From Rhodothermia bacterium (GTDB lineage: Bacteria; Bacteroidota; Rhodothermia; Rhodothermales; UBA2364): a stretch of 61,254 bases of DNA. Both the position numbers and the translations under genes were made by a program. Below the pieces are notes generated by a model. The model saw nothing but the letters and a program-made list of their open reading frames with translations, was not told the origin of the DNA and did not search any database. The DNA lies in contig JAFLBZ010000027.1 of NCBI GenBank assembly GCA_017303715.1, positions 1 through 61,254 on the forward strand. The letters run 5' to 3'. Positions 41,029-61,055 of the stretch are shown here, piece by piece (position 1 is the first letter of the stretch; every line of letters begins with the position of its first letter).

Positions 41029-41994
41029 TTATTTCATTAAAATAACTTGTTTAGAAGCAACGAAAGAAGAGCCGGTGGCACGATAGACATAAATCCCACT
41101 TGGTAAATTACCAGCATCGAATGTAATCATGTTGACTTCATTGGCAACCACTTGCCCTTCAAAAAGGGTAGCAACTTTTTGCCCCATTGTGTTAAACACT
41201 TCCACTTGAACGTTTTGCGTTTGGCCTACCGTTAGTGAAAATTTTGTCATGGGGTTAAATGGATTCGGATAGGCGTTTGTAAGCTCAAAATTACCCGGAA
41301 GCTCAACGTTTACGTCTATGGCAGCACTCATGCTTTTGCTGCCATCCTTGCCTAAACTGACAATCCGGAAGGTGTGCTTTCCGGCAGGAAGGTTGTTTAG
41401 TGTTGTGGAAAATATCGCTGCGTCTTGGATCGTTGCAATGGTCTGGAAATCATCCTTCAACCATTTTTGAATTTCATATCGCTCAATATCTGTAGAAGAA
41501 GTTACCTTCCAAGACAAGTTCACATCTTTCCCTTGTACCATTGCCGTTGCATCTGTCTTGTTGATTGGCAAAGGAACCGTACAAGATGCCGTTATGGTGG
41601 TTGGGCCACCTACGGGGGTTGGGCTGGGGTGAGTTGTGGTTGCACTGGCAGAGTATGTACCATTAGCACCACCGCAAACAGCACTCCAAGAAAGGTTAAT
41701 ATTTGCAACTGGGCAGGTATAAGTACGTGTTAGACCTGTACCTGTTTTTACACAAGTTACCGCGCTTGACGATACCCCATTTACTGTATATGTTGCTGTG
41801 ACCGCAGCCCCTACGTTAGAACCTGTAAACGTCCAGTTCACGGAGACAGACTGCGTACCGGTAGCTGTTGAACCAGATACCCCTGTTGTGGTAATAGTAG
41901 TTGGACTTACCACAAATTGTGCATAAACGGGAAGTGTGCTCGCAATGAATAGGAGCAAGAGCGCATTAATAAAGTGCGTAAACTTTGTTTTCAT
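41029..41994 (-). CDS. Secreted protein with T9SS type A sorting domain
   Basis: 321 residues, with a signal peptide ending at VYAQ (26). The Ser/Thr/Val-rich Ig-like part (about 30-140) has four Cys, an FnIII-like domain follows (about 150-230), and the C-terminal sorting domain (about 240-321) has AYPNPFNPMTKFSLTV, GQKVATLFEGQVV and a closing SGIYVYRATGSS. It is exported to the surface by a type IX system. No catalytic motif was seen. It is divergent from the glucan operon, 1064 bases apart. Confidence 0.8.
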   Translation of the reverse strand: MKTKFTHFINALLLLFIASTLPVYAQFVVSPTTITTTGVSGSTATGTQSVSVNWTFTGSNVGAAVTATYTVNGVSSSAVTCVKTGTGLTRTYTCPVANINLSWSAVCGGANGTYSASATTTHPSPTPVGGPTTITASCTVPLPINKTDATAMVQGKDVNLSWKVTSSTDIERYEIQKWLKDDFQTIATIQDAAIFSTTLNNLPAGKHTFRIVSLGKDGSKSMSAAIDVNVELPGNFELTNAYPNPFNPMTKFSLTVGQTQNVQVEVFNTMGQKVATLFEGQVVANEVNMITFDAGNLPSGIYVYRATGSSFVASKQVILMK

Positions 41995-43057: not shown

Positions 43058-46000
43058 ATGAAGCAGTTTTTAAGGGTCTTATCCCTCCTCGCGCTACCGG
43101 TTATTGCATCTGCACAGCCCGCTAAAACCACGTTGCAGCACGATGCAGCAGGTTATAGGCTTCTTGTAGATGGAAAGCCATTTATGATGAATGGCATGAA
43201 TTGGGACTATTTCCCCGTCGGGACAAACTACAACTATAGCCTGTGGAAGCAGTCAGATGATTTTATTCGGAGAGCCTTAGACTACGAAATGACGCTTCTC
43301 AAAAATATGGGGGTAAACACCATTCGGCAATACTATGGGGTTCCGGCCAAATGGATTCAATACATCTACGAGAAGCATGGTATTTATACGGTACTCAACC
43401 ATTCTTACGGGAGATATGGTCTAAATGTAGATGGCGCTTGGATGGCCAATACCGACTATTCCAACCCAAGGGTTCAAGAAATTTTGATTTCGGAAGTCGT
43501 TAAGATGGTGGAGGAAACCCAAAATACACCCGGCGTGCTGCTTTATCTATTAGGAAACGAGAATAACTATGGGCTTTTCTGGGAAGGCGCGGAAACCGAA
43601 GATATCCCGATGGAAGACCGGAAAAGCACCAAAAAAGCAATCCATTTATATAAGGCATTTAATCAGGGTGCGCTTGCTATGAAGAGCAAGAACAAAGACC
43701 TTTTGGTATCCTTATGCAACGGGGATTTGTTGTTTTTAGACCTGATTGTAGAAGAGGCAAAAGATGTGGATATTTTAGGCGTTAACATGTACCGTGGCAC
43801 TTCGTTCACTGGTGCTTTTGAGGACGTAAAAAATAAGTTAAACAAACCCCTATATTTCACCGAGTTTGGCTCGGATGCCTTTAATGCCATTACCCATAAA
43901 GAAGACCAAGAAGCGCAAGCGGGCTTTTTGTTGAGCAACTGGAAAGAAATTTATGAACATGCCTATGGTATGGGGAAAACAGGTATTTCTTTGGGCGGGT
44001 TGACCTTCCAATTTAGTGATGGCTGGTGGAAATATGGCCAGACCCTTAATTTAGATGTGCATGATCCCAATGCTTCATGGGCGAACGGTGGTTATAGCTT
44101 TGACTATGTGAAAGGCGAAAACAACATGAACGAAGAATGGTTTGGAGTATGCGCAAAAGGGAAAACAGACGAACAAGGCTTCTATCAACTTTACCCCAGA
44201 ACCGGATATTTCATTCTTCAACAAATTCATAAATTCGACCCTTATAAATCGGGCAGTAAAAACGAAATTGACCGCTTTTTTAGCAATATATCGTTCGTAG
44301 AGGCCACACAAAAAGCAAAGGCGGAGCGTGCCATTGCACAGAGCGAAAATGCAAACACCATTCGGCTGAGTCGTCTAACCGCAGATTTCTCGACCTTTCA
44401 TACGGGCGGGAAACTGATTACCACGCCAGCTACACCGATTGCCAATAGCACCTCATACCCAAACCGCTTAGGTTTTGACCATTTACAATCATTTTATGTG
44501 GGCGTAGAGGTTAATCCGACCAGTACCGTGTCTGCAAATGTGGAGTTTAATGTTTTGGGTCATGTTCCCACCAATCCAATAGACGAGGTGTTTTATGAAA
44601 ATCGTGGGCGCGATGTGGTGGTAGAAACCACAGATGGGCCTTTGACGCTGCGCTCAAATGATCGAATTCAGCTTTATCGCTCCAAATTTAATTGGAAACA
44701 AAAATATTTTGACCTCACCGGATTTTATCGCACGGGCCACTACCATTGGGGCTACGAAGGCGACTTCTTCGGCCTATATCCTGAAGCCAACTATGGCCCC
44801 AATATTGATCTATACAATGGCGAAGCGCCTGCCGGTTTTGAGGTTGAAGGCCGCAAATTCTTAAACGGGCTGAAAATGGCTTATGGCCCCGAATTGTGGT
44901 GGGGCGCTAACCCAGCTATTTTACTCAAATACAGTAAAACCTTAAAGAAGGCCACTTGGACGGGGATTTTCCATGAGGACTTGGGCGAATCCGGCAATAT
45001 CAACAGTTCTTTTGCCATCCCGCAACCTAAGACAAGGAGGCTCACCTTGCACATGAACCGAGCATTCGAGAAATTGAAAGTGGATTTGGGGGGCATCTGG
45101 GCAGGTAAACCCCTCGAAGGCCGCACGTTCCAACTGGCACGAGAAGTAAACGGCCAAACCAAAGTGTTTCAGGACAAAATCAAACCCGATGATATGTGGG
45201 GCGGTAAACTTAAATTAATGTACCAATCCGGTAAAATCGGCTGGTACGGACAAGGAGCCGTTATGGGATTGGTCGCAAACGGAGGTGCAGATTACACCAA
45301 AACATTTACCGGATGGACGCTAAAAGACAGCGGGAGCGGCAACCAATACAATGTCTTAAGCGGTTTGATTTATAACGTCGGCCATTTTCAGATTGCCCCC
45401 AATTTCCTTTGGCAAAAACCCATCGAAGGGCCAATCACCAAAGGTGTTCCTGCGCCGGGAAGGCCACGAAATATCTTAGACGACCCCTTTGTTGTGCGGG
45501 CAAACCGTGAGCAAATGGCTGGCGAAATCTTGGTTACCTACGATCCAACGCCAGCCACTTGGATGTATGAGTGGGACAACGATAATGCAGAGGATGCCGC
45601 GCTTGCCCTAAGTGCCGGATTTGTGTACCGACATTTACCTACCTCCCAAGATGCTGCTATCGGTATCCAACAAGATGGGCGTTCTGTCTATGCCTTTGAT
45701 GGTGCAGCGCCGGCAAAAGACCTCTGGGAAGCACGTGCCAGAATTGTCTCCAGGCCTGTTCCACATTTTGGCTTGATTGCCAACCTCTATGGCGGAACGG
45801 CACAAGCCAATGGGAGCGACCCCAGAACCGTAAACCGTGCAGGAATTGACCTACGCATGATCTACAAAAAAATGAAACTCAACTACTTCTTCAAACTCAA
45901 TGACTGGGGGCCTTTCGACTATCATCGGGACTTTAACCTTACCTATCCGATGCAACAAATGTTAGACGTCTCCACCGAATTAGGCAGGCTGAATTTCATT

Positions 46001-46183
46001 ATGCTTCCCACGACCAAAGTCGGAATAAGAGGCACGTACAGAACCTTAGACCGATATTCCCCGCGATATAGCCCCGTGCTTGTAATTGATCCTGATGGCA
46101 ATTTTATTCCAAATCCAAATGCCATTGGTTTTAGCAACGGTAAAGAATGGGAAATCAGAACCTATATCCAATTTAATCTCTAA
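43058..46183 (+). CDS. Clan GH-A-like glycosidase fused to a predicted outer-membrane beta-barrel
   Basis: 1041 residues from the ATG at 43058, the start that gives a normal signal peptide (VIASAQ, 20). Residues about 25-430 form a TIM-barrel glycosidase. E168 in LLGNENNYG is the probable acid/base and E269 in YFTEFGSDA the nucleophile, the layout of clan GH-A families such as GH2, GH5 and GH158. From about 440 to the end there are repeated amphipathic strands with aromatic girdles (YFDLTGFYRTGHYHWGYEG, KATWTGIFHEDLG, LNYFFKLNDWG) and a terminal YIQFNL, as in outer-membrane barrels. I know no standard architecture with this order. It would tether the enzyme at the membrane or supply a pore. 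First gene of the glucan operon; the next starts 5 bases on. Confidence 0.8.
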   Translation: MKQFLRVLSLLALPVIASAQPAKTTLQHDAAGYRLLVDGKPFMMNGMNWDYFPVGTNYNYSLWKQSDDFIRRALDYEMTLLKNMGVNTIRQYYGVPAKWIQYIYEKHGIYTVLNHSYGRYGLNVDGAWMANTDYSNPRVQEILISEVVKMVEETQNTPGVLLYLLGNENNYGLFWEGAETEDIPMEDRKSTKKAIHLYKAFNQGALAMKSKNKDLLVSLCNGDLLFLDLIVEEAKDVDILGVNMYRGTSFTGAFEDVKNKLNKPLYFTEFGSDAFNAITHKEDQEAQAGFLLSNWKEIYEHAYGMGKTGISLGGLTFQFSDGWWKYGQTLNLDVHDPNASWANGGYSFDYVKGENNMNEEWFGVCAKGKTDEQGFYQLYPRTGYFILQQIHKFDPYKSGSKNEIDRFFSNISFVEATQKAKAERAIAQSENANTIRLSRLTADFSTFHTGGKLITTPATPIANSTSYPNRLGFDHLQSFYVGVEVNPTSTVSANVEFNVLGHVPTNPIDEVFYENRGRDVVVETTDGPLTLRSNDRIQLYRSKFNWKQKYFDLTGFYRTGHYHWGYEGDFFGLYPEANYGPNIDLYNGEAPAGFEVEGRKFLNGLKMAYGPELWWGANPAILLKYSKTLKKATWTGIFHEDLGESGNINSSFAIPQPKTRRLTLHMNRAFEKLKVDLGGIWAGKPLEGRTFQLAREVNGQTKVFQDKIKPDDMWGGKLKLMYQSGKIGWYGQGAVMGLVANGGADYTKTFTGWTLKDSGSGNQYNVLSGLIYNVGHFQIAPNFLWQKPIEGPITKGVPAPGRPRNILDDPFVVRANREQMAGEILVTYDPTPATWMYEWDNDNAEDAALALSAGFVYRHLPTSQDAAIGIQQDGRSVYAFDGAAPAKDLWEARARIVSRPVPHFGLIANLYGGTAQANGSDPRTVNRAGIDLRMIYKKMKLNYFFKLNDWGPFDYHRDFNLTYPMQQMLDVSTELGRLNFIMLPTTKVGIRGTYRTLDRYSPRYSPVLVIDPDGNFIPNPNAIGFSNGKEWEIRTYIQFNL

Positions 46184-46187
46184 TGCA

Positions 46188-48059
46188 ATGAAAAAAAATT
46201 CTTTAACGGCTCGCATAAATAGTTGGTCGGTAATGCTCTCTTTGCTGTTTTTTACAGCTTGCGAAACGGATATTACCGGATTAGAAGAGGCCGCCTATCC
46301 CACAAATGGAGATGTATTTTTGGATACCTTCAGCAGTGGGTTAAATTACGCTGCCTTTGGTGGCTCCGTGCCTACGGCTTTCCAAGTAGATAAAAAAGTA
46401 AGCTATAACAACTCGCTCGCTTCCATGCGGGTGGACGTTCCGAACACCAATGATCCAAATGGCGCATATGCAGGTGGGTCTTATTTTACCTCCATGCCTC
46501 GGAATTTGTCGTCTTTTGATGCCCTTACGTTTTGGGCAAAGTCCTCCCAAGCTGCTACAATAGACGTTGTCGGCATTGGAAATGACTTAGGGGAAAACAA
46601 GTATCAGGCTTCCATATCAGGTCTGCAAGTAAACACAACTTGGAAAAAATATATTATTCCGATCCCTGATCCTTCTAAATTAACGGCTGAAAAAGGCATG
46701 TTTTTCTTCTCAGAAGGCCCCGAAAATGAAAAGGGATACTCCTTCTGGATAGATGAGGTTAAATTTGAAAAATTAGGAACGGTTGCACACGCACAAGCCA
46801 AAATATTAGACGGGCAAACCCAGAGTATTACGTCATTTATTGGTGTAAGCAATATAATTGGTGGCTTGGCTTCTGTTTTTAATTTACCGAATGGAGTCAA
46901 CCAAGCCGTTAATGCTTCTCCGCATTATTTTACATTTTCTTCTTCCAATAATACCGTCGCAACTGTAAACCAACAAGGCGCTATTAATATTATTGGAACT
47001 GGCTCAAGCACCATAACAGCCACTCTTGGTAATACGCCAGCAACGGGTTCAATGGTGATTACTTCACGCGGGAATTACATCGCAGCACCAACACCAATAC
47101 GGGCTGCAAAAGATGTAATATCACTCTTTAGTGAGGCGTATTCTAATGCCCCTGTTGATTATTATAATGGCTATTGGGCGCCTTATCAAACCACACAATC
47201 TTCCGATTTTATTGTAAATGGAGATCGGGTTCTAAACTATACCAATTTCAATTTTGTGGGTATCCAATTTAGTTCACCTACCATAAATGCTTCGGCAATG
47301 TCGCACCTACATTTGGATATTTATTTGCCTAATAATATTGCGGCTGGAACAGCCCTGAAAGTGCAGTTGGTGGACTTTGGCGCAGACAATGCTTTTGGTG
47401 GTAATAACGATGTTAGTGCTACTATGACCTTCACAATGCCAGCCTTACAAAGCCAAAAGTGGGTAAGTTTAGACATCCCATTCCGGGATCTCCCAACCCT
47501 AACCTCGCGCAAAAACCTTGGCCAAATCATTTTTGAAGGCACCAATATCTCAAGTTTTTACATGGATAATGTGTACTTTTATAATGATGGGAGTGTGATT
47601 TCCTTGGAGCCATCAACCGCTGCACCAACCCCTGCTAGGCCCGCCGCCAATGTGATTTCCATCTTTAGCGATGCCTACGCAAACGTGGCCGGTACAGACC
47701 TGAATCCCGGCTGGGGACAAAGTACCCAAACTTCGGTAGTAAAAATCGCAGGCAATGACACTTATAAAATGTCTGGACTTAACTACCAAGGAATTCAATT
47801 TGGCAGCAATCAAAATGTGGCTGGAAAAACCAACTTCCATATTGATTATTACACGGCAAATTCAACCTTACTGAATGTGTATCTCATTAGCCCTGGCCCT
47901 GTGGAGAAAGCCTATAAACTGACCGTTCCGTCAACTGGTGGATGGAGAAGTATTGACATTCCGCTCTCTACTTTTGCTCCAGTAAATATGTCCAATATCT
48001 TTCAAATAAAATTTGATGGGAATGGAGATGTTTATGTGGATAATATCTACTTTTATTAA
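46188..48059 (+). CDS. Multi-module glycan-binding lipoprotein
   Basis: 623 residues from the ATG at 46188, with lipobox LFFTAC and C25. Module 1 (about 35-195) is a beta-sandwich with SFDALTFWAKSS and WIDEVKFEK. A bacterial Ig-like (Big_2-type) domain follows (about 205-295). Two homologous modules come next (about 300-463 and 480-623), both with APTP, (D/N)VIS(L/I)FS-x-AY, GIQF, a WxSxDIP strand and a closing DNxYFY. This last module type recurs in laminarin-degrading proteins of Bacteroidota. No catalytic residues are evident, so it is probably a surface glucan-binding protein in place of SusD/SusE. It starts 5 bases after the fused glycosidase gene. Confidence 0.75.
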   Translation: MKKNSLTARINSWSVMLSLLFFTACETDITGLEEAAYPTNGDVFLDTFSSGLNYAAFGGSVPTAFQVDKKVSYNNSLASMRVDVPNTNDPNGAYAGGSYFTSMPRNLSSFDALTFWAKSSQAATIDVVGIGNDLGENKYQASISGLQVNTTWKKYIIPIPDPSKLTAEKGMFFFSEGPENEKGYSFWIDEVKFEKLGTVAHAQAKILDGQTQSITSFIGVSNIIGGLASVFNLPNGVNQAVNASPHYFTFSSSNNTVATVNQQGAINIIGTGSSTITATLGNTPATGSMVITSRGNYIAAPTPIRAAKDVISLFSEAYSNAPVDYYNGYWAPYQTTQSSDFIVNGDRVLNYTNFNFVGIQFSSPTINASAMSHLHLDIYLPNNIAAGTALKVQLVDFGADNAFGGNNDVSATMTFTMPALQSQKWVSLDIPFRDLPTLTSRKNLGQIIFEGTNISSFYMDNVYFYNDGSVISLEPSTAAPTPARPAANVISIFSDAYANVAGTDLNPGWGQSTQTSVVKIAGNDTYKMSGLNYQGIQFGSNQNVAGKTNFHIDYYTANSTLLNVYLISPGPVEKAYKLTVPSTGGWRSIDIPLSTFAPVNMSNIFQIKFDGNGDVYVDNIYFY

Positions 48060-48077: not shown

Positions 48078-48902
48078 ATGAAAAATCACATGCATACAGT
48101 ACGTTTTTTCGTTCTCAGTTTCCTTCTGCTCTCATTCACTTCTTGTGATGTTGATACAACACAAAAAACTGGGAAGAGGAACTGGCAATTGGTTTGGTCA
48201 GATGATTTCGATGGGGTCGTAAGTACTCTACCAGATGCCAAAAAATGGGCATTTGATATTGGTAATAGTGGCTGGGGTAATAGTGAATTACAATACTATA
48301 CCAATAAACCGGAAAATGTCGCTCTTGACGGCAGTGGAAATCTGGTCATTACAGCCCGAAAAGAGTCGTTTGGTGGTGCCGCTTTTACCTCGGCGAGAAT
48401 TAAAACACAGGGGCTTTTTGCTCAAAAATATGGACGCTTTGAGGCGCGTCTTAAAACACCCTATGGACCGGGAATCTGGCCAGCATTTTGGTTGTTGGGA
48501 GACAATATTAACGAAGTCGGTTGGCCTCAATGTGGCGAAATTGACATCATGGAACTTAGGGGACAACAACCCAACGTCATACACGGCTCTGTACACGGCC
48601 CCGGGTATTCCGGCGGGAATGCCATTACCGCCCCTCATGGCCTGATGAATAGTCGTTATGATTCAGACTTTCATGTGTTTGCAATAGAATGGAATGAAGA
48701 CAGCATAGACTATTATGTGGATGATTATTTATACCATAGACTTAAAAAGTCAGAGGTCAAAGGTACATGGGTATATGATCATCCATTTTTTATCATCTTA
48801 AACGTTGCTGTTGGGGGAAATTATGTAGGATTCCCTACTGATCAGACCCCATTCCCACAAAAAATGATCATTGATTACGTAAAAGTATATCAGGAAAATT
48901 AA
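48078..48902 (+). CDS. GH16 endo-beta-1,3-glucanase (laminarinase) lipoprotein
   Basis: 274 residues, with lipobox LLSFTSC and C23 (an alternative start at Met5 does not change this). The GH16 catalytic motif is GEIDIMELRG with E154 nucleophile, D156 and E159 acid/base, the extra Met being the beta-bulge form typical of laminarinases. WGNSELQYYT, GRFEARLKTPYGPGIWPAFWLLG and ILNVAVGGN are the usual cleft segments. It probably acts on the outer surface on laminarin-type or mixed-linkage glucan. It is third in the operon. Confidence 0.93.
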   Translation: MKNHMHTVRFFVLSFLLLSFTSCDVDTTQKTGKRNWQLVWSDDFDGVVSTLPDAKKWAFDIGNSGWGNSELQYYTNKPENVALDGSGNLVITARKESFGGAAFTSARIKTQGLFAQKYGRFEARLKTPYGPGIWPAFWLLGDNINEVGWPQCGEIDIMELRGQQPNVIHGSVHGPGYSGGNAITAPHGLMNSRYDSDFHVFAIEWNEDSIDYYVDDYLYHRLKKSEVKGTWVYDHPFFIILNVAVGGNYVGFPTDQTPFPQKMIIDYVKVYQEN

Positions 48903-48933: not shown

Positions 48934-51900
48934 ATGAAACAAGTTTTAATGGACAATACCCCATTTTATCAAATTGAATATTTTGATAAAATGAGGCCAT
49001 TTTTCATGACTATTCTAAGTTCCTCCAATCATTGGATGTTCATTTCGAGTAATGGTGGACTTACTACTGGAAGAACCAGTTCAGACTTTTCGCTTTTTCC
49101 GTATTATACCGAAGATAAAATTACAGATGCGCACGAGCATACAGGCCCTAAAACCATCTTGAAAGGTCATGATAGATTAGATGGATGGATATGGGAGCCA
49201 TTCTCGGAAAAAAAACAGTCTCATTTTGACATAAAGCGTAACCTTTACAAAAGTATTTATGGAAATCAGATTGTTTTTGAAGAGGTAAACAAAACGCTTG
49301 GACTTGTTTTTAAATATCAATGGTCTAATTCTGAAGAATATGGATTTATTAGAACTTCTACAATCCATAATATTGGTGATATAGACCATAAAATTGAAGT
49401 CTTGGATGGTTTGCAAAATGTGCTTCCAGCAGGTGTTGGAAGTGATTTGCAAAATCATTATAGCAATCTGGTGGATGCCTACAAGCAAACTGAGCTAATC
49501 GAAAATGGAAGACTTGGAATTTATGCTTTATCCGCCATTATTGTGGATCGTGCAGAGCCAAGCGAAGCACTAAAAGCCAATATCATTTGGGCTTATGGTT
49601 TAGAAAATGCCCAAGTTTTGTTGTCTAATTTTCAGCTTCAGTCATTCAGAAATGGCCTTGAGATTCAACCAGAAATCGAAAATAAGGGAGAGAAAGGTGC
49701 TTTCTTCTTGGTTGATACCGTAGAGGTTAAAAAAAATAAAACAGCGACTTGGTACATCGTAGCAGATGTAAACAAAAGTCATGCGCAGGTGGTCACATTG
49801 TGTGAGAAACTCGAAAATCCGATGCAACTCATGGTAGAAGTACAAAAAGATGTTGATCAAGGAACGAGCAACTTAATTCAATTGGCTGCTGCGGCTGATG
49901 GCCTTCAAATGACTTCAGATACCTTAAAGGATACCCGACATTTCTCGAATGTCATGTTTAACATTATGCGAGGAGGGGTTTTTGAAGACCATTATCAAGT
50001 CCAAAAATCAGATTTTATTTCGTATTTAAAAAAAGCAAATATAAAAATTTATAATGAATCTTTAGTGGAATTAAGTTCTTTACCAGATAAATTCCCATCT
50101 CAATTATTGGAAAAACTTCCTGCTACAAAACAAAAAATAGATTTTAAGCGGCTGTGTAGGGAATACTTACCGCTATATTTTAGTCGCCGCCATGGAGACC
50201 CATCGCGACCTTGGAATAAATTTTTTGTAAACACTAAAAATGAGCTTAGTGGTGCAAAAACTTTAGATTATCAAGGTAATTGGCGCGATATATTTCAGAA
50301 TTGGGAAGCACTTGGTAGGTCTTTTCCTGATTTCGTTGAAGGTATGGTGTATAAATTTCTGAACGCATCTACTTTTGAGGGCTATAATCCATATCGCATT
50401 AGTAAAGATGGCTTCGATTGGGAAGTAATTGAGCCAGATGACCCTTGGGCTTATATTGGCTACTGGGGCGATCATCAGGTTATTTATTTGCTAAAATTTT
50501 TAGAATTTCTTGAGCAATACCAGCCTGAATCCCTAAAGAATCTATTGGATAAAGAAGAATTTGTTTATGCAAATGTGCCTTATAAAATAAAAAAATATAC
50601 TGACATTCTTCAAAATCCAAAAGATACCATCACATTCGATCATAAATTAGATGTACAAATCAAAGAAGAAAAATCGAGAATAGGGGCTGACGCATGTCTT
50701 TTGTACAACGAAAGTCATCAAATACATCATGTGAATTTTTTTGAGAAAGTATTGGCCGTTGTCCTCTCTAAAATCTCTAACTTTATTCCAGAAGCTGGAA
50801 TTTGGATGAATACGCAGCGCCCAGAGTGGAATGATGCCAATAATGCTTTGGTTGGGAATGGGGTCTCGATGGTTACGTTGTGTTATTTGCGAAGATTCTT
50901 GGCTTTTTTCCAAGAAATAATCCATAAAACTGAACTAAGTGAAATAAAAATCTCGCAAGAATTGGTGGATTATTATAAGAATACCAGAAATATTTTGGAA
51001 GAAAATGTCTCACTTCTTGCATCAAAAATAAAAGACAGCGATCGGAAAATAATCGTAGATCAATTAGGCGAAGTGGCCAGTTCGTATCGGTGGCACATCT
51101 ACCAACATGGGTTTTGGGGCAAAAAACGTAGCATCTCCCTTGATGGGATCAAGAAGTTTATCAACCTCAGTTTACAGTATGTAGATCATTCCATTCGTGC
51201 AAATGAAAGGCAAGACGGCTTATATCATGCTTATAACATTATGTCGGTTGAGGAAGAAAGCGTCTCTATTTCTAGATTACCGGTAATGTTAGAAGGTCAG
51301 GTAGCTGCTTTGAGTGCAGGCATTTTATCTGGAAAACAAGCCGTTCAACTCTTGGTTGCGTTAAAAAATAGTCCACTCTATGTTACAAACCGGAATAGTT
51401 ATCTTTTATACCCTAATAAAAGACTACCGAGTTTTATTGAAAAAAATACATTTGGAGAAGATAAATTAAAAGAAATGAACTTTCTCCAAGAATTGTTAGA
51501 AAAGAAAAACTGTGACATCATAGAGAAAGACATTAAAGGAAAATATCATTTCAATAAAAATTTCAAAAATATTTATGATTTAAAAACTGCTTTATCCGAA
51601 GCGGAATTTGCAAGCTATATTCACTATTCCAATTCTGAATTGGAAAAAGTATATGCGCTATATGAAAAAATATTTAACCATAAGTCATTTATGGGACGTT
51701 CCGGCACTTTCTATGCTTTTGAGGGCTTAGGCTCCATTTATTGGCACATGGTTTCGAAATTATTACTTGCCGTAAACGAAAATATTTTAAAAGCGCATCA
51801 GGAAGGTGAAGATGAAACCTTAATACTTGCATTGGTCGAACGTTATTACGACATTTATGAAGGGATTGGAACACATAAAAAACCACAAGATTACGGCGCA

Positions 51901-52341
51901 TTTCCTACGGATGCTTATTCACATACACCCATGAGGCGTGGGGCGCAGCAGCCGGGTATGACGGGCCAGGTTAAAGAAGACATTATTTGTCGTTGGGGCG
52001 AACTTGGTATTGGTATAAACCACGGTCAGCTATCTTTTAGTCCCAAGTTCTTAAAACACAAAGAGTTTAAAGGTGAGCCTTTTGTTTTTTCTTATTATGA
52101 TTTAGATAATAAGTTTAATACGTTAGAAGTAAAACCCAACAGTTTGGTGTTTACATATTGCCAAATTCCCATTGTTTATCAAGTTGGAGATGAAAATAAA
52201 ATACTCGTTTCTATGGCCGCAGGAGAAAGTCATACTTTTGAAGGGAATGAATTGCCCCTTTCGTTAAGTAAAGCCATTTTCCTTCGTGAAAAAAAAATAA
52301 AGTATATTCGGGTTATCGTCAAGTCTGAACAACTTATTTGA
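48934..52341 (+). CDS. Large inverting beta-glucan phosphorylase, GH149/GH161-like
   Basis: 1135 residues, no signal peptide, so cytoplasmic. The size and motifs fit the GH94-related beta-1,3-oligoglucan phosphorylases: an N-terminal beta-sandwich with DGLQNVLPAGVGSDLQN and IVDRAEPSEA, then an (alpha/alpha)6 barrel with FSRRHGDPSRPWNKF, GNWRDIFQNWEAL with D452 as likely general acid, EPDDPWAYIGYWGDHQ, and RPEWNDANNALVGNG. The C-terminal domain has PTDAYSHTPMRRGAQQPGMTG, probably phosphate binding. It would release glucose-1-phosphate from imported oligosaccharides. The gene is clearly AT-richer than the genes before 48000. Confidence 0.8.
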   Translation: MKQVLMDNTPFYQIEYFDKMRPFFMTILSSSNHWMFISSNGGLTTGRTSSDFSLFPYYTEDKITDAHEHTGPKTILKGHDRLDGWIWEPFSEKKQSHFDIKRNLYKSIYGNQIVFEEVNKTLGLVFKYQWSNSEEYGFIRTSTIHNIGDIDHKIEVLDGLQNVLPAGVGSDLQNHYSNLVDAYKQTELIENGRLGIYALSAIIVDRAEPSEALKANIIWAYGLENAQVLLSNFQLQSFRNGLEIQPEIENKGEKGAFFLVDTVEVKKNKTATWYIVADVNKSHAQVVTLCEKLENPMQLMVEVQKDVDQGTSNLIQLAAAADGLQMTSDTLKDTRHFSNVMFNIMRGGVFEDHYQVQKSDFISYLKKANIKIYNESLVELSSLPDKFPSQLLEKLPATKQKIDFKRLCREYLPLYFSRRHGDPSRPWNKFFVNTKNELSGAKTLDYQGNWRDIFQNWEALGRSFPDFVEGMVYKFLNASTFEGYNPYRISKDGFDWEVIEPDDPWAYIGYWGDHQVIYLLKFLEFLEQYQPESLKNLLDKEEFVYANVPYKIKKYTDILQNPKDTITFDHKLDVQIKEEKSRIGADACLLYNESHQIHHVNFFEKVLAVVLSKISNFIPEAGIWMNTQRPEWNDANNALVGNGVSMVTLCYLRRFLAFFQEIIHKTELSEIKISQELVDYYKNTRNILEENVSLLASKIKDSDRKIIVDQLGEVASSYRWHIYQHGFWGKKRSISLDGIKKFINLSLQYVDHSIRANERQDGLYHAYNIMSVEEESVSISRLPVMLEGQVAALSAGILSGKQAVQLLVALKNSPLYVTNRNSYLLYPNKRLPSFIEKNTFGEDKLKEMNFLQELLEKKNCDIIEKDIKGKYHFNKNFKNIYDLKTALSEAEFASYIHYSNSELEKVYALYEKIFNHKSFMGRSGTFYAFEGLGSIYWHMVSKLLLAVNENILKAHQEGEDETLILALVERYYDIYEGIGTHKKPQDYGAFPTDAYSHTPMRRGAQQPGMTGQVKEDIICRWGELGIGINHGQLSFSPKFLKHKEFKGEPFVFSYYDLDNKFNTLEVKPNSLVFTYCQIPIVYQVGDENKILVSMAAGESHTFEGNELPLSLSKAIFLREKKIKYIRVIVKSEQLI

Positions 52342-52350
52342 GTTTACGTC

Positions 52351-53844
52351 ATGAAAAAGTTTATTTTTATAATTTTATTACTTATTGTCTCACAAATGGC
52401 TTATTCGCAAAGCAAAAAATGGCAGGTAAATATTTGGGAAACCTCTGCAACTGGTAACGCAATGGTGGAATTAAATGTGGGGAATAAATCGCAATCCCCA
52501 GATGCTGTAATTCGAATTCAACCAGAGCTGAAGTTCCAAAAAATCTTAGGCTTTGGAGGTGCATTTACAGAAGCAACAACTTACCTATTATACAAACTTA
52601 GCAAAGTAAATCGCGACAAAATCTTACAGGCTTATTTTGGAGATGCTGGTGCAAAATATTCTCTTTGTCGAACACCAATAAATTCTACAGATTTTTCATT
52701 GGATCACTATGCGTATGCAATGGTTCCGGGTGATAAAAAACTAAAACATTTTGATATTAGGAAAGACGAAAAGCACCTAATCCCCACGATAAAAGAGGCT
52801 CAGAAAATTTCTACAGAAGGATTTAAATTAATAGCTTCTCCTTGGACTGCACCACCTTGGATGAAAGACAACAGCCATTGGGTGGGTGGAAAGCTAAAGC
52901 CGGAGTATTATCCCACTTGGGCTTTGTATTTTTCTAAATATTTGGATGCTTATAAGAAGCATCAGATACACTTCTGGGGTGTTACAGTCGAGAATGAGCC
53001 GAATGGTAATGGTAATAATTGGGAAAGTATGCTTTTTTCGCCTCAAGAAATGACCCAATTTGTACAATATCATTTAGGGCCTCACCTTAAAAAAAATGGG
53101 TATAAAGACATAAAAATTCTGGGGTACGATCAAAATAGAGCCGATTTAAAAAGCTGGGTGGATGAAATGTATCGGACGCCAGAAAGCAGTCAATATTTTC
53201 ACGGAACTGCCATTCATTGGTATGAAAGCACCTATGATTATTTTCCAGATGCATTAGATTATGCACACTATAAAGCACCAAATAAACATTTAATCCAAAC
53301 AGAAGCATGTATTGATGCAGAAGTTCCTGTTTGGCAAAATGACCAATGGTATTGGCAACCAAATGCAACTGATTGGGGATATGATTGGGCGCCAGACCAC
53401 GAAAAATATTTACATCCAAAATATGTACCCGTTTATCGTTATGCGGAAGATATAATCGGTGGATTAAACCATTGGGTTGAAGGGTGGATAGACTGGAATA
53501 TGGTTTTGGATAAACAGGGTGGGCCGAATTGGTTTAAAAATTGGTGTATAGCGCCGATTATTGTTGATCCGGAAAAAGATGAAGTCTATTTCACCCCATT
53601 GTACCACGTTATGGCACATTTCAGTCGCTTTATAAGGCCCGGTGCGCATCGGATTGGTTTTTCAAATATAAACAGCACACTCGTTGCAACGGCTGTCGAG
53701 AACCCAGATAAATCAATCATTCTTATACTGCTGAATAAGGATAAAAATGCCAAAAATATAGCGTTACACTTAAATGGTTTTTCTCAGGTTTTAACAATAA
53801 ATCAAGAAAGTTTGCAAACCATAATCCTTAAACCCTCTAATTAA
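52351..53844 (+). CDS. GH30 exported glucanase/glucosidase
   Basis: 497 residues, with a signal peptide ending at MAYSQ (20) and no lipobox, so probably periplasmic. GH30 features: FGGAFTEATTYLL, SPWTAPPWMK, acid/base E216 in VTVENEPNGN, and nucleophile E318 in LIQTEACID. W-rich GLNHWVEGWIDWNMVLD and a C-terminal beta-sandwich (about 420-497) follow. The best guess is a beta-1,6-glucanase or beta-glucosidase removing side chains of laminarin. It lies 9 bases after the phosphorylase gene and shares its AT-rich composition. Confidence 0.9.
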   Translation: MKKFIFIILLLIVSQMAYSQSKKWQVNIWETSATGNAMVELNVGNKSQSPDAVIRIQPELKFQKILGFGGAFTEATTYLLYKLSKVNRDKILQAYFGDAGAKYSLCRTPINSTDFSLDHYAYAMVPGDKKLKHFDIRKDEKHLIPTIKEAQKISTEGFKLIASPWTAPPWMKDNSHWVGGKLKPEYYPTWALYFSKYLDAYKKHQIHFWGVTVENEPNGNGNNWESMLFSPQEMTQFVQYHLGPHLKKNGYKDIKILGYDQNRADLKSWVDEMYRTPESSQYFHGTAIHWYESTYDYFPDALDYAHYKAPNKHLIQTEACIDAEVPVWQNDQWYWQPNATDWGYDWAPDHEKYLHPKYVPVYRYAEDIIGGLNHWVEGWIDWNMVLDKQGGPNWFKNWCIAPIIVDPEKDEVYFTPLYHVMAHFSRFIRPGAHRIGFSNINSTLVATAVENPDKSIILILLNKDKNAKNIALHLNGFSQVLTINQESLQTIILKPSN

Positions 53845-53846
53845 TC

Positions 53847-55268
53847 ATGAGTAACCAGACAAATCAGGGTGTACCAACCATCGAAAAATTAGCATTTGGT
53901 GCTGGCCATTTGGTGAATAACCTTTTTCCGGGCGCATTGGGTGTTTTTTCTTTTTTCTTGCTAACAGGCTTCGGAATTGATCCCGTTTATGCAGGGATGC
54001 TGTCTGCCATTCCGCGCTTTTTCGATGCCCTATCGGATCCTATTATGGGATTTGTTTCTGACAATACAAAGTCTAAATGGGGCAGGAGAAGACCTTATAT
54101 TTTTGCGGGAGCTATTTTGGCTGGTATTTTCTTTTTTATTCAATGGCAAATGGACGAAGCCAATGGAACTGTTTTTAATTTTTGGTACTTCTTGATTATG
54201 TCCATTATTTTCATTTTGTTTAATACCATGTTTTCTACCCCACTCATTGGTTTAGGCTATGAAATGACCAGTGATTATAAAGAAAGAACAAGGCTAATGG
54301 GTTTTTCCCAAACGGTTAGTCAGTTGGCGTGGATGATTGTTCCGTGGTTTTGGGTGTTGGTTGCTGATCCAAATTTATTTTCTTCGCAAGCTGAGGGGGT
54401 TAGGGTTTTATCTATTATTGTAGGGATTGCATGTGCCGTTCTGGGTATTTTACCTGCCATATTTTGTAAGGAAGTAGCTGCCGCGCATATTGAAAATCAA
54501 GCCGAACTCACATGGAAAAATACGTTTAATAACCTTACAAAATTGTTCAAAGATGTTAAGAATATGACCAAGAATGTTCCTTTTATGCGGCTGTGTGGGG
54601 CTACCTTCTTGGTCTTTAATGGTTTCCAAATGGTGGCTTCTTTTAGCATTTTTATTATTGTTTTTTACATGTATAATGGTAGTTATGAGGCTGCAGGAAC
54701 GCTACCCGCTTGGTTTTCGACCATTAGTGCCTTAGCAACTGCTTTTTTGGTTATCCCAATCGTTACATTTTTAGCCAATAAGTATGGCAAACGTAATGCT
54801 TTTGTGATTTCTACGGCCATTTCTATTGTGGGCTATTTGCTCAAGTGGTGGGGTTTTAACCCAACAAATCCTTGGATGATCTTTATGCCCGTACCATTCA
54901 TTGCATTTGGATTGGGGGGACTTTTCACGTTGATGATGAGCATGACGGCAGACGTTTGTGATCTGGATGAATTGGAGAATGGGATGCCTCGCAAAGAAGG
55001 CACTTTTGGGGCAATCTATTGGTGGATGGTGAAATTAGGACAAGCGTTGGCGTTGTTTTTGGGTGGTATTGTGCTAAAAGTGGTTGGATTTGACCAAAAT
55101 GCGGCAGTACAGGCAGCTGAAACCATGACCCTCTTGCGGATGTGCGACATTGCCCTACCCGCGATAACAGCGGCTCTGGCCATTTGGGTAATGTGGAATT
55201 ATGACCTTAGCGAAGAGCGAGCACATGAAATTAAAGCGGAATTGGTGCGTCGGAGAGGTGAGTTATAA
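53847..55268 (+). CDS. GPH-family sugar:cation symporter (MFS)
   Basis: 473 residues with about 12 membrane segments. The glycoside-pentoside-hexuronide signature is present: ALSDPIMGFVSDNTKSKWGRRRPYI (written in part), with the Asp of the cation site, and GMPRKEGTFGAIYWWMVKLGQA in the second half. It would take up gluco-oligosaccharides across the inner membrane to feed the cytoplasmic phosphorylase. It begins 3 bases after the GH30 stop and closes the operon at a bidirectional terminator. Confidence 0.88.
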   Translation: MSNQTNQGVPTIEKLAFGAGHLVNNLFPGALGVFSFFLLTGFGIDPVYAGMLSAIPRFFDALSDPIMGFVSDNTKSKWGRRRPYIFAGAILAGIFFFIQWQMDEANGTVFNFWYFLIMSIIFILFNTMFSTPLIGLGYEMTSDYKERTRLMGFSQTVSQLAWMIVPWFWVLVADPNLFSSQAEGVRVLSIIVGIACAVLGILPAIFCKEVAAAHIENQAELTWKNTFNNLTKLFKDVKNMTKNVPFMRLCGATFLVFNGFQMVASFSIFIIVFYMYNGSYEAAGTLPAWFSTISALATAFLVIPIVTFLANKYGKRNAFVISTAISIVGYLLKWWGFNPTNPWMIFMPVPFIAFGLGGLFTLMMSMTADVCDLDELENGMPRKEGTFGAIYWWMVKLGQALALFLGGIVLKVVGFDQNAAVQAAETMTLLRMCDIALPAITAALAIWVMWNYDLSEERAHEIKAELVRRRGEL

Positions 55269-59465: not shown

Positions 59466-61055
59466 ATGAACTTCAATTTTCTTAAAACTGCTCTTTTGGG
59501 TGGTCTCCTTTTCGTAGGAAGCCTTCACGTATCTGCACAGAGCGCCGAGGATGCCATTCGATATACGCAGCGGATGCTCAATGCGGGCGCACGGTCAATG
59601 GGTATTGGGATGACCGGACGTGCGGGCATTGGCGATTGGTCAGCCACCGCACTCAATCCTGCTGGATTGGGGTGGTCTAAATATTCGTCTTTTCAGGGCG
59701 GCTTGCAAATGCTCAGTGGCGAGGACGAGTCGTCTTTTGTGCTGCCACAGACTGCCACACAGACCAATAAAGAAACCTTTAACACCTCTGCCATTTCCAA
59801 CTTGGGCTATCTGAAAAAAGCAGAAGTTGCGCGTGGCTCCTTGGCTTTTGGCATTGGTGTAAATAAAGTGACACAATATGATCGTACAAGCCGTTTTTCG
59901 GGCGAGAATGGTGAAAACTCCATTACCGATTATTTCTTGCCAGCAGATGATGCTTATACGGTGAATGCCGGAACGGATGGCGTTATTGGAACGAATGACG
60001 ACCGCTTTTCGTTTACTTCGCCCATCTCAACCATTGCGTTCGAGACATATGCCATAGATTTTGACAAAGCATTTTATACCGCCAACAAGTATCCGTTTTT
60101 TGCGGGGATTCAAACCGGAACCGTATCGCAGGAAGGCAGTGTGCGCGAAAGTGGTGATGTGAACGAACTGAGTTTTGCAGGTGCATGGGAGGCTGCACGA
60201 AATGTGATGGTTGGGGCTTCGGTGAACATCCTGTTTGGGAACTACAAATACCGTAGGAGTTTCACGGAAAACGATAAATACAATGACAACGATGGAACAT
60301 ATCCGAACGATGGAACATATCAGACGGTTAACTTCAATAGCCTAACATTAACCGAAAACCTTGATACAGGTGTGAGTGGTGCAAACCTCCGCCTTGGTCT
60401 TTCTACTAAACTTACGGAAAACCTGAAAATTGGCGTAGTAGCGGAAACACCCACTCAATACAGCATCGCCGAGGACTATGCAACTATTCTGGCAACAAAA
60501 TACGATGACGGCGGAACATATGAGTATGGTGGGCTTTCCTACGATGTAGGAACAGGCGCTTTCGATTATCGGATTGCAACACCTTGGCGGCTTGGGGCTG
60601 GGGTACAGTTCTCATCAAGCCATGTAAATTTATTTGGTGATGTGGAATTTACCGATTGGTCAAAAATGAAGTTGAGTGCGGAATCGGATCGTGATTACTT
60701 CAATCACTTGAACGACAATATCGCTGACAACTATCAATCCTCCGTACAAGTAGCCCTTGGTGGTGAATTTATCTGGCGTAACTTTTCGGTTAGGTTGGGA
60801 GCAGGGAGAAACCCCGATGCGCGTAAAAATCCAGAGGTGAGTCGCGAAAAAACGTATGCTTCCTTGGGCGCAGGTGTGAAATTTGGCAATAGATTTGAGT
60901 TGAACGCTGCTGTGATGACGGAAATGTATGATGATCTATACTTGCCATATACTGATCTCTCCACCTTTAGTCCATTACGTCTTAATGTTTATCCGATGGT
61001 CAACCGGAAAGTAATCCGTCAGTTTGGAACACTCGAACTCAAAGTGACGCTCTAA
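59466..61055 (+). CDS. OmpP1/FadL-family outer-membrane transport protein
   Basis: 529 residues, with a signal peptide ending at VSAQ (25). The N-terminal ARSMGIGMTGRAGIGDWSATALNPAGLGW matches the FadL hatch-domain signature (A-R...G..GA..A...D.SA...NPAGL). The body consists of amphipathic strands with GVVAETPTQYSI and WRLGAGVQF, and the C-terminus ends in LELKVTL. FadL-type barrels let hydrophobic compounds such as fatty acids or aromatics diffuse in; the ligand is unknown here. A terminator follows. Confidence 0.9.
   Translation: MNFNFLKTALLGGLLFVGSLHVSAQSAEDAIRYTQRMLNAGARSMGIGMTGRAGIGDWSATALNPAGLGWSKYSSFQGGLQMLSGEDESSFVLPQTATQTNKETFNTSAISNLGYLKKAEVARGSLAFGIGVNKVTQYDRTSRFSGENGENSITDYFLPADDAYTVNAGTDGVIGTNDDRFSFTSPISTIAFETYAIDFDKAFYTANKYPFFAGIQTGTVSQEGSVRESGDVNELSFAGAWEAARNVMVGASVNILFGNYKYRRSFTENDKYNDNDGTYPNDGTYQTVNFNSLTLTENLDTGVSGANLRLGLSTKLTENLKIGVVAETPTQYSIAEDYATILATKYDDGGTYEYGGLSYDVGTGAFDYRIATPWRLGAGVQFSSSHVNLFGDVEFTDWSKMKLSAESDRDYFNHLNDNIADNYQSSVQVALGGEFIWRNFSVRLGAGRNPDARKNPEVSREKTYASLGAGVKFGNRFELNAAVMTEMYDDLYLPYTDLSTFSPLRLNVYPMVNRKVIRQFGTLELKVTL

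Follow-up and report, generated by a model that had tools for sequence, protein, structure and literature searches.

The gene at positions 43,058–46,183 on the forward strand of the window, the whole analysed stretch of 61,254 nucleotides from a Rhodothermia bacterium, encodes in one open frame a protein of 1041 amino acids in which a glycosidase is joined to a predicted outer-membrane β-barrel. This combination of enzyme and predicted barrel in one chain is a conserved architecture, found in full-length homologues. The preferred reading, with a probability of about 0.6, is that the protein is a TonB-independent outer-membrane channel with a tethered β-glucanase, probably on the periplasmic side, which would perform the uptake step of a β-1,3-glucan (laminarin-type) pathway and replace SusC/SusD in it.

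Laminarin is one of the largest marine carbon flows, and SusC/D is the textbook route of glycan import in Bacteroidota. In clusters that do without it the outer-membrane step was not evident, a gap that the fusion protein would fill; GH149 clusters lacking susCD were noted in 2018 (PMC5827456). Searches for glycan loci that demand SusC/D may overlook a whole class of loci, and it can be tested whether passive uptake is rectified when enzyme and pore share one chain.

Protein architecture and the catalytic domain

The chain begins with a type-I signal peptide without a lipobox (residues 1–20, 43,058–43,117, read from the sequence, MKQFLRVLSLLALPVIASAQ), continues with the catalytic domain (residues ~25–430, 43,130–44,347) and ends with a part of ~607 residues that forms the predicted barrel (residues ~435–1041, 44,360–46,180), all on the forward strand. 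A division into a catalytic half and a distinct strand-rich half, proposed in an earlier sequence-only reading, exceeds chance, as the alternation of hydrophobic residues has a z of 4.3 in the C-terminal half and −0.5 in the catalytic half, each against its own shuffles.

Residues 71–280 match the Pfam family Glyco_hydro_2_C with 30.5 bits (cut-off 21), while a profile search with the catalytic half places GH158 structures first (6pal, E 8e-6; 9oro, E 1.1e-5), the best structure match being at 28 bits and of partial length. PDB entry 6PAL is presumably the endo-β-1,3-glucanase BuGH158. GH158 is a clan GH-A family of β-1,3-glucanases with catalytic residues E137 and E220, where N136 precedes the acid/base (PMC7157763). 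Both glutamates of the GH158 chain in 9oro align with E168 and E269, and in 6pal the second one, with E269, is aligned. E168 (43,559–43,561), the predicted acid/base, follows N167 in the motif LGNEN and corresponds to LGNE of the GH158 chain; E269 (43,862–43,864), the predicted nucleophile, lies in FTEFG, which corresponds to TE(F/W)G of GH158 chains. None of the three residues varies among 182 homologues or among nine relatives that lack the barrel.

With an asparagine-preceded first glutamate and a second catalytic glutamate, the domain is a predicted glycosidase of clan GH-A, and the earlier assignment to this clan with E168/E269 as the catalytic pair is borne out by the TIM-barrel match in Pfam, the invariant glutamates and the GH158 alignment. 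The domain probably has β-glucan specificity, and β-glucanase activity is predicted for it. It shares with BuGH158 the clan, the Asn-Glu acid/base motif, the aligned second glutamate and the β-1,3-glucan context, whereas BuGH158 has an Ig-like C-terminal domain and SusC/D alongside, in place of a predicted barrel and no SusC/D.

Membership in family GH2 was rejected: the sugar-binding and immunoglobulin-like domains that precede the TIM barrel are absent, the TIM domain comes directly after the signal peptide, and Glyco_hydro_2_C is the sole Pfam match. Automatic annotation takes account of no more than the first 300 residues and labels the fusion protein a GH2-type enzyme, and a Bacteroides finegoldii record of a homologue reads “glycoside hydrolase family 2 TIM barrel-domain containing protein”. 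The description of a laminarin locus of Muricauda lists a “GH2 β-glycosidase” among a regulator, GH16, GH149, GH17, GH30 and an MFS transporter (PMC13188888), which is the same gene company as in the fusion-gene loci. From gene order alone this enzyme appears to be a homologue of the fusion protein, although that paper treats it as a GH2 β-glycosidase and, in the passages covered here, leaves a barrel half unmentioned (PMC13188888).

Evidence for a barrel in the C-terminal half

Residues ~440–1041 belong to no sequence family of Pfam, NCBIfam or PDB, in agreement with the earlier remark that the architecture has no named family. There was no convincing Pfam or NCBIfam match (DUF6882, at 14.7 bits, fell short of its cut-off), and PDB sequences gave no match to a profile of this half. 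When profiles were compared with those of E. coli barrels and of TonB receptors nothing clear emerged, FepA being the best at 4.6% probability.

The C-terminal half shows 1.27 times the hydrophobic alternation of its own shuffled sequences (21 homologues, none with z under 3.0), similar to 1.22 for E. coli outer-membrane barrels and 1.23 for the barrels of Bacteroidota TonB receptors. The controls are lower: 0.96 for the catalytic half, 1.02 for GH16, 1.09 for the binding lipoprotein, 0.99 for GH149, 0.92 for GH30, 0.94 for SusD and 1.01 for soluble proteins of E. coli. The Cys fraction is 0.0006 in the C-terminal half, 0.0004 in TonB-receptor barrels and 0.0081 in the catalytic half, though it is likewise low (0.0012) in the neighbouring lipoprotein.

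Coevolution was analysed on 182 sequences, with an effective number of 94, by mean-field DCA in place of plain mutual information on 102 sequences, which was apparently dominated by clade effects. An excess of antiparallel over parallel signal is confined to pairs 12–60 residues apart, the two being equal at longer range, and ladders such as 734-763/731-766 and 596-623/602-617 are seen in the C-terminal half. An antiparallel excess limited to short range is as expected of an up-and-down meander. The best score for closure between first and last strands in the same analysis is matched by 41% of random blocks; that the barrel closes is an inference. There are 29 amphipathic segments, compared to 18.0 ± 3.9 in column shuffles, and a crude count from these segments suggests roughly 18–24 strands. 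The protein ends in …WEIRTYIQFNL, where the hydrophobic last strand YIQFNL noticed earlier is indeed present, and this final stretch is conserved.

Judged by its sequence, the C-terminal half would thus be built, as membrane barrels are, of amphipathic strands in antiparallel order. The outer-membrane barrel put forward in the sequence-only reading stands as a predicted fold, backed by the alternation, the near absence of Cys, the short-range antiparallel coevolution and the presence of a lipid anchor in several relatives without the C-terminal half. It is improbable that this half is instead a string of soluble β-sandwich or carbohydrate-binding domains. Such an arrangement would agree with the low to intermediate scores that a composition-based barrel classifier gave for windows starting at 651–801; that classifier was set aside, as it reached an AUC of only 0.77 in leave-one-family-out validation and was weak on TonB receptors. 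Soluble domains are at odds with an alternation above that of β-rich soluble controls, with antiparallel coevolution at short range only, with the absence of any CBM or Ig-type profile match to the C-terminal half in the Pfam, NCBIfam and PDB profile searches, and with the absence of another surface anchor: a lipobox-like motif is found in none of 81 fused proteins, and NCBIfam models, sorting domains included, gave only β-galactosidase matches.

Across 182 homologues, 99 of 610 positions of the predicted barrel reach an identity of 99% or more, and W, D, E and R are frequent among them. Mean column identity is 71% in the predicted barrel as opposed to 68% in the catalytic half, with few indels in the former. 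This conservation, which includes the loops, is odd for an outer-membrane protein and unusual for a porin, and a fixed partner, for example the downstream lipoprotein, could explain it.

The same conservation bears on the possibility that the barrel is an autotransporter-like translocator, which brings the enzyme at its N-terminus to the outside of the cell. Type Va autotransporters have an N-terminal enzyme, a linker and a C-terminal barrel, and the order of parts here is the same. This explanation is nevertheless hardly probable: a type V assignment was rejected because no translocator or other autotransporter domain was matched in Pfam up to E = 1, the ~600 residues are twice the length of the classical translocator, and the whole barrel is conserved to the same degree as the enzyme. 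BamA and LptD also combine a soluble N-terminal domain with a large barrel, and a maltoporin of the LamB type resembles the predicted barrel in its proposed role as a sugar channel, but no sequence relationship of these proteins to the fusion protein was found, and the N-terminal domain of the latter is an enzyme.

Gene neighbourhood, SusC/SusD and loss of the barrel

Five genes follow the fusion gene on the same strand with short gaps, and their relatives were counted over 80 loci, the counts being lower bounds as contig ends cut some loci. The first (46,188–48,059) encodes a lipoprotein with a Pfam Big_2 domain and the lipobox LFFTAC, a probable glucan-binding partner or lid, and a relative is found directly downstream in all 80 loci. 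The next (48,078–48,902) is a GH16 lipoprotein (Pfam, 97.7 bits; lipobox FTSC; 71/80 loci), probably a surface endo-β-1,3-glucanase, followed by a GH149 1,3-β-glucan phosphorylase in which no signal peptide was seen (48,934–52,341; NF058639, 1659 bits, cut-off 1150; 56/80). A GH30 enzyme with a type-I signal peptide (52,351–53,844; Pfam, 266 bits; 37/80) is probably a β-1,6-glucosidase or glucanase, and the last gene (53,847–55,268; Pfam, 214 bits; 46/80) encodes a GPH-family (MFS_2) inner-membrane sugar symporter. A GH17-like gene, whose Pfam match is just under the cut-off, is present in 54 of the 80 loci and GH3 in nine, and in 36 a regulator of the Reg_prop/Y_Y_Y/LuxR type lies immediately upstream. 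The glucan context is supported by the recurrence of GH16, GH17-like, GH149 and GH30 genes, and the neighbourhood is, as predicted from these matches, a complete gene set for a β-1,3-glucan pathway without another recurrent outer-membrane transporter.

Two further genes of the window may be mentioned. A 529-residue protein encoded at 59,466–61,055 (+) has a weak match to the BamG family (39 bits, cut-off 250), and a 321-residue secreted protein encoded at 41,029–41,994 (−) has a C-terminus (YPNPFNP…) which by eye resembles a type IX secretion sorting domain.

The fusion protein contains no Pfam Plug domain, and its identity as SusC or another TonB-dependent receptor was rejected on this ground. 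A SusC/SusD locus was likewise rejected in the absence of an adjacent SusD: neither Plug nor SusD is found on the window's contig, while the genome has 43 Plug and 2 SusD matches elsewhere, and SusD/TonB-receptor models match only one of 80 neighbourhoods of fused genes (L072), 7–10 kb away. Like the SusC/SusD importer, the predicted barrel has a surface lipoprotein as its invariant neighbour within a glycan locus, but it has neither Plug nor SusD, bears an enzyme domain and is probably not driven by TonB.

Nine relatives lack the C-terminal half, and four of them (L135, L136, L138, L141) have a lipobox, as read by eye. The tree places the fused form at the root, with five changes that correspond to five independent losses of the C-terminal half. 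SusC/SusD stands beside two of the nine barrel-less genes (L138, L140) and was found at none of the other seven loci in the sequence stretch examined, so that a strict swap, in which a missing barrel always means SusC/D, was rejected. In one genome (G115) a decayed remnant of the barrel start is still present beyond the stop codon of the barrel-less gene (L144:2025-3700), which points to recent truncation. In another (G231) the gene (L143:1271-4176) is broken into two pieces, followed by an open reading frame that by eye resembles an IS110-type transposase.

The losses are relevant to a simpler explanation, in which the barrel is a mere membrane anchor for the glycosidase and the oligosaccharides enter via SusC/D or general porins encoded elsewhere. 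A lipobox is often present where the barrel was lost, as if anchoring alone needed keeping, SusD is present elsewhere in 41 of 42 genomes tested, which makes uptake in trans possible, and laminarin genes can be scattered, as in Maribacter, where they are dispersed (PMC11345257). On the other hand, a barrel of 600 residues is costly compared to a lipid, its conservation equals that of the enzyme and it has many invariant W, D, E and R residues, 79 of 80 loci have no linked transporter, and SusC/D is linked to the gene in two relatives without the barrel. A role as a mere anchor is therefore considered unlikely, although less so than an autotransporter or a string of soluble domains.

Proposed route of glucan uptake and its distribution

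In the preferred reading of a channel with a tethered β-glucanase, the surface GH16 enzyme and the neighbouring lipoprotein would cut and hold the glucan, and laminari-oligosaccharides would cross the C-terminal barrel, of which the lipoprotein may be the lid, as SusD is for SusC. Tethered at the mouth of the barrel, probably the periplasmic one, the N-terminal GH-A domain would trim the incoming oligosaccharides, and consumption of the product, not TonB energy, would make uptake one-way. Inside the cell, the GPH symporter and the GH149 phosphorylase would complete the pathway. In a barrel of even strand number the N-terminus lies on the periplasmic side, and a domain that precedes such a barrel is normally periplasmic; the enzyme is thus more likely to be at the inner than at the outer mouth. 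The earlier proposal that glucan is cut at the mouth of the protein's own pore is plausible in this form, the position of the N-terminal domain favouring the periplasmic mouth.

A parallel is an MFS-GH17 fusion of the inner membrane in Formosa; the paper that describes it was aware of no other bacteria in which a transporter and a CAZyme are fused in this way (PMC6246565). It likewise combines a transporter and a β-glucanase in one chain within a laminarin locus, but the transporter is helical and located in the inner membrane, and the enzyme is C-terminal (PMC6246565). No description of an outer-membrane transporter-enzyme fusion was found in a literature search of partial coverage.

The broader proposition, that a single chain of channel and hydrolase with a lipoprotein lid, driven by cutting at the inner mouth, replaces SusC/SusD as a TonB-independent route of polysaccharide uptake throughout the phylum, is more tentative and has slightly less than an even chance of being correct. 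The fusion protein itself is widespread in Bacteroidota: at E ≤ 1e-5 it is matched in 51 of 394 genomes searched in the phylum, in about 31 of these over the full length, and in one family it is present in 87 of 397 genomes. At least 556 stretches of the GTDB collection encode a relative, and the 80 that were retained are all full length, with 58–65% identity, and come from Flavobacteriales, Bacteroidales, Chitinophagales, Cytophagales, Balneolaceae and Kapaibacterium. With a profile built from the barrel alone, matches were obtained in 23 of 198 genomes; in 22 the barrel is fused, and the remaining match is the decayed remnant in G115. No relative was found on viral contigs.

A homologue also occurs on a PLSDB record (L111, NZ_OY725931.1, “plasmid 29” of B. 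finegoldii), in a cluster without SusC/D that consists of DUF6377, the fusion gene, a hypothetical gene, GH16, fimbrillin, a second hypothetical gene and bglX. The same record carries valS, rpsA and glutamine synthetase, and on this account it looks like a chromosomal contig mislabelled as a plasmid.
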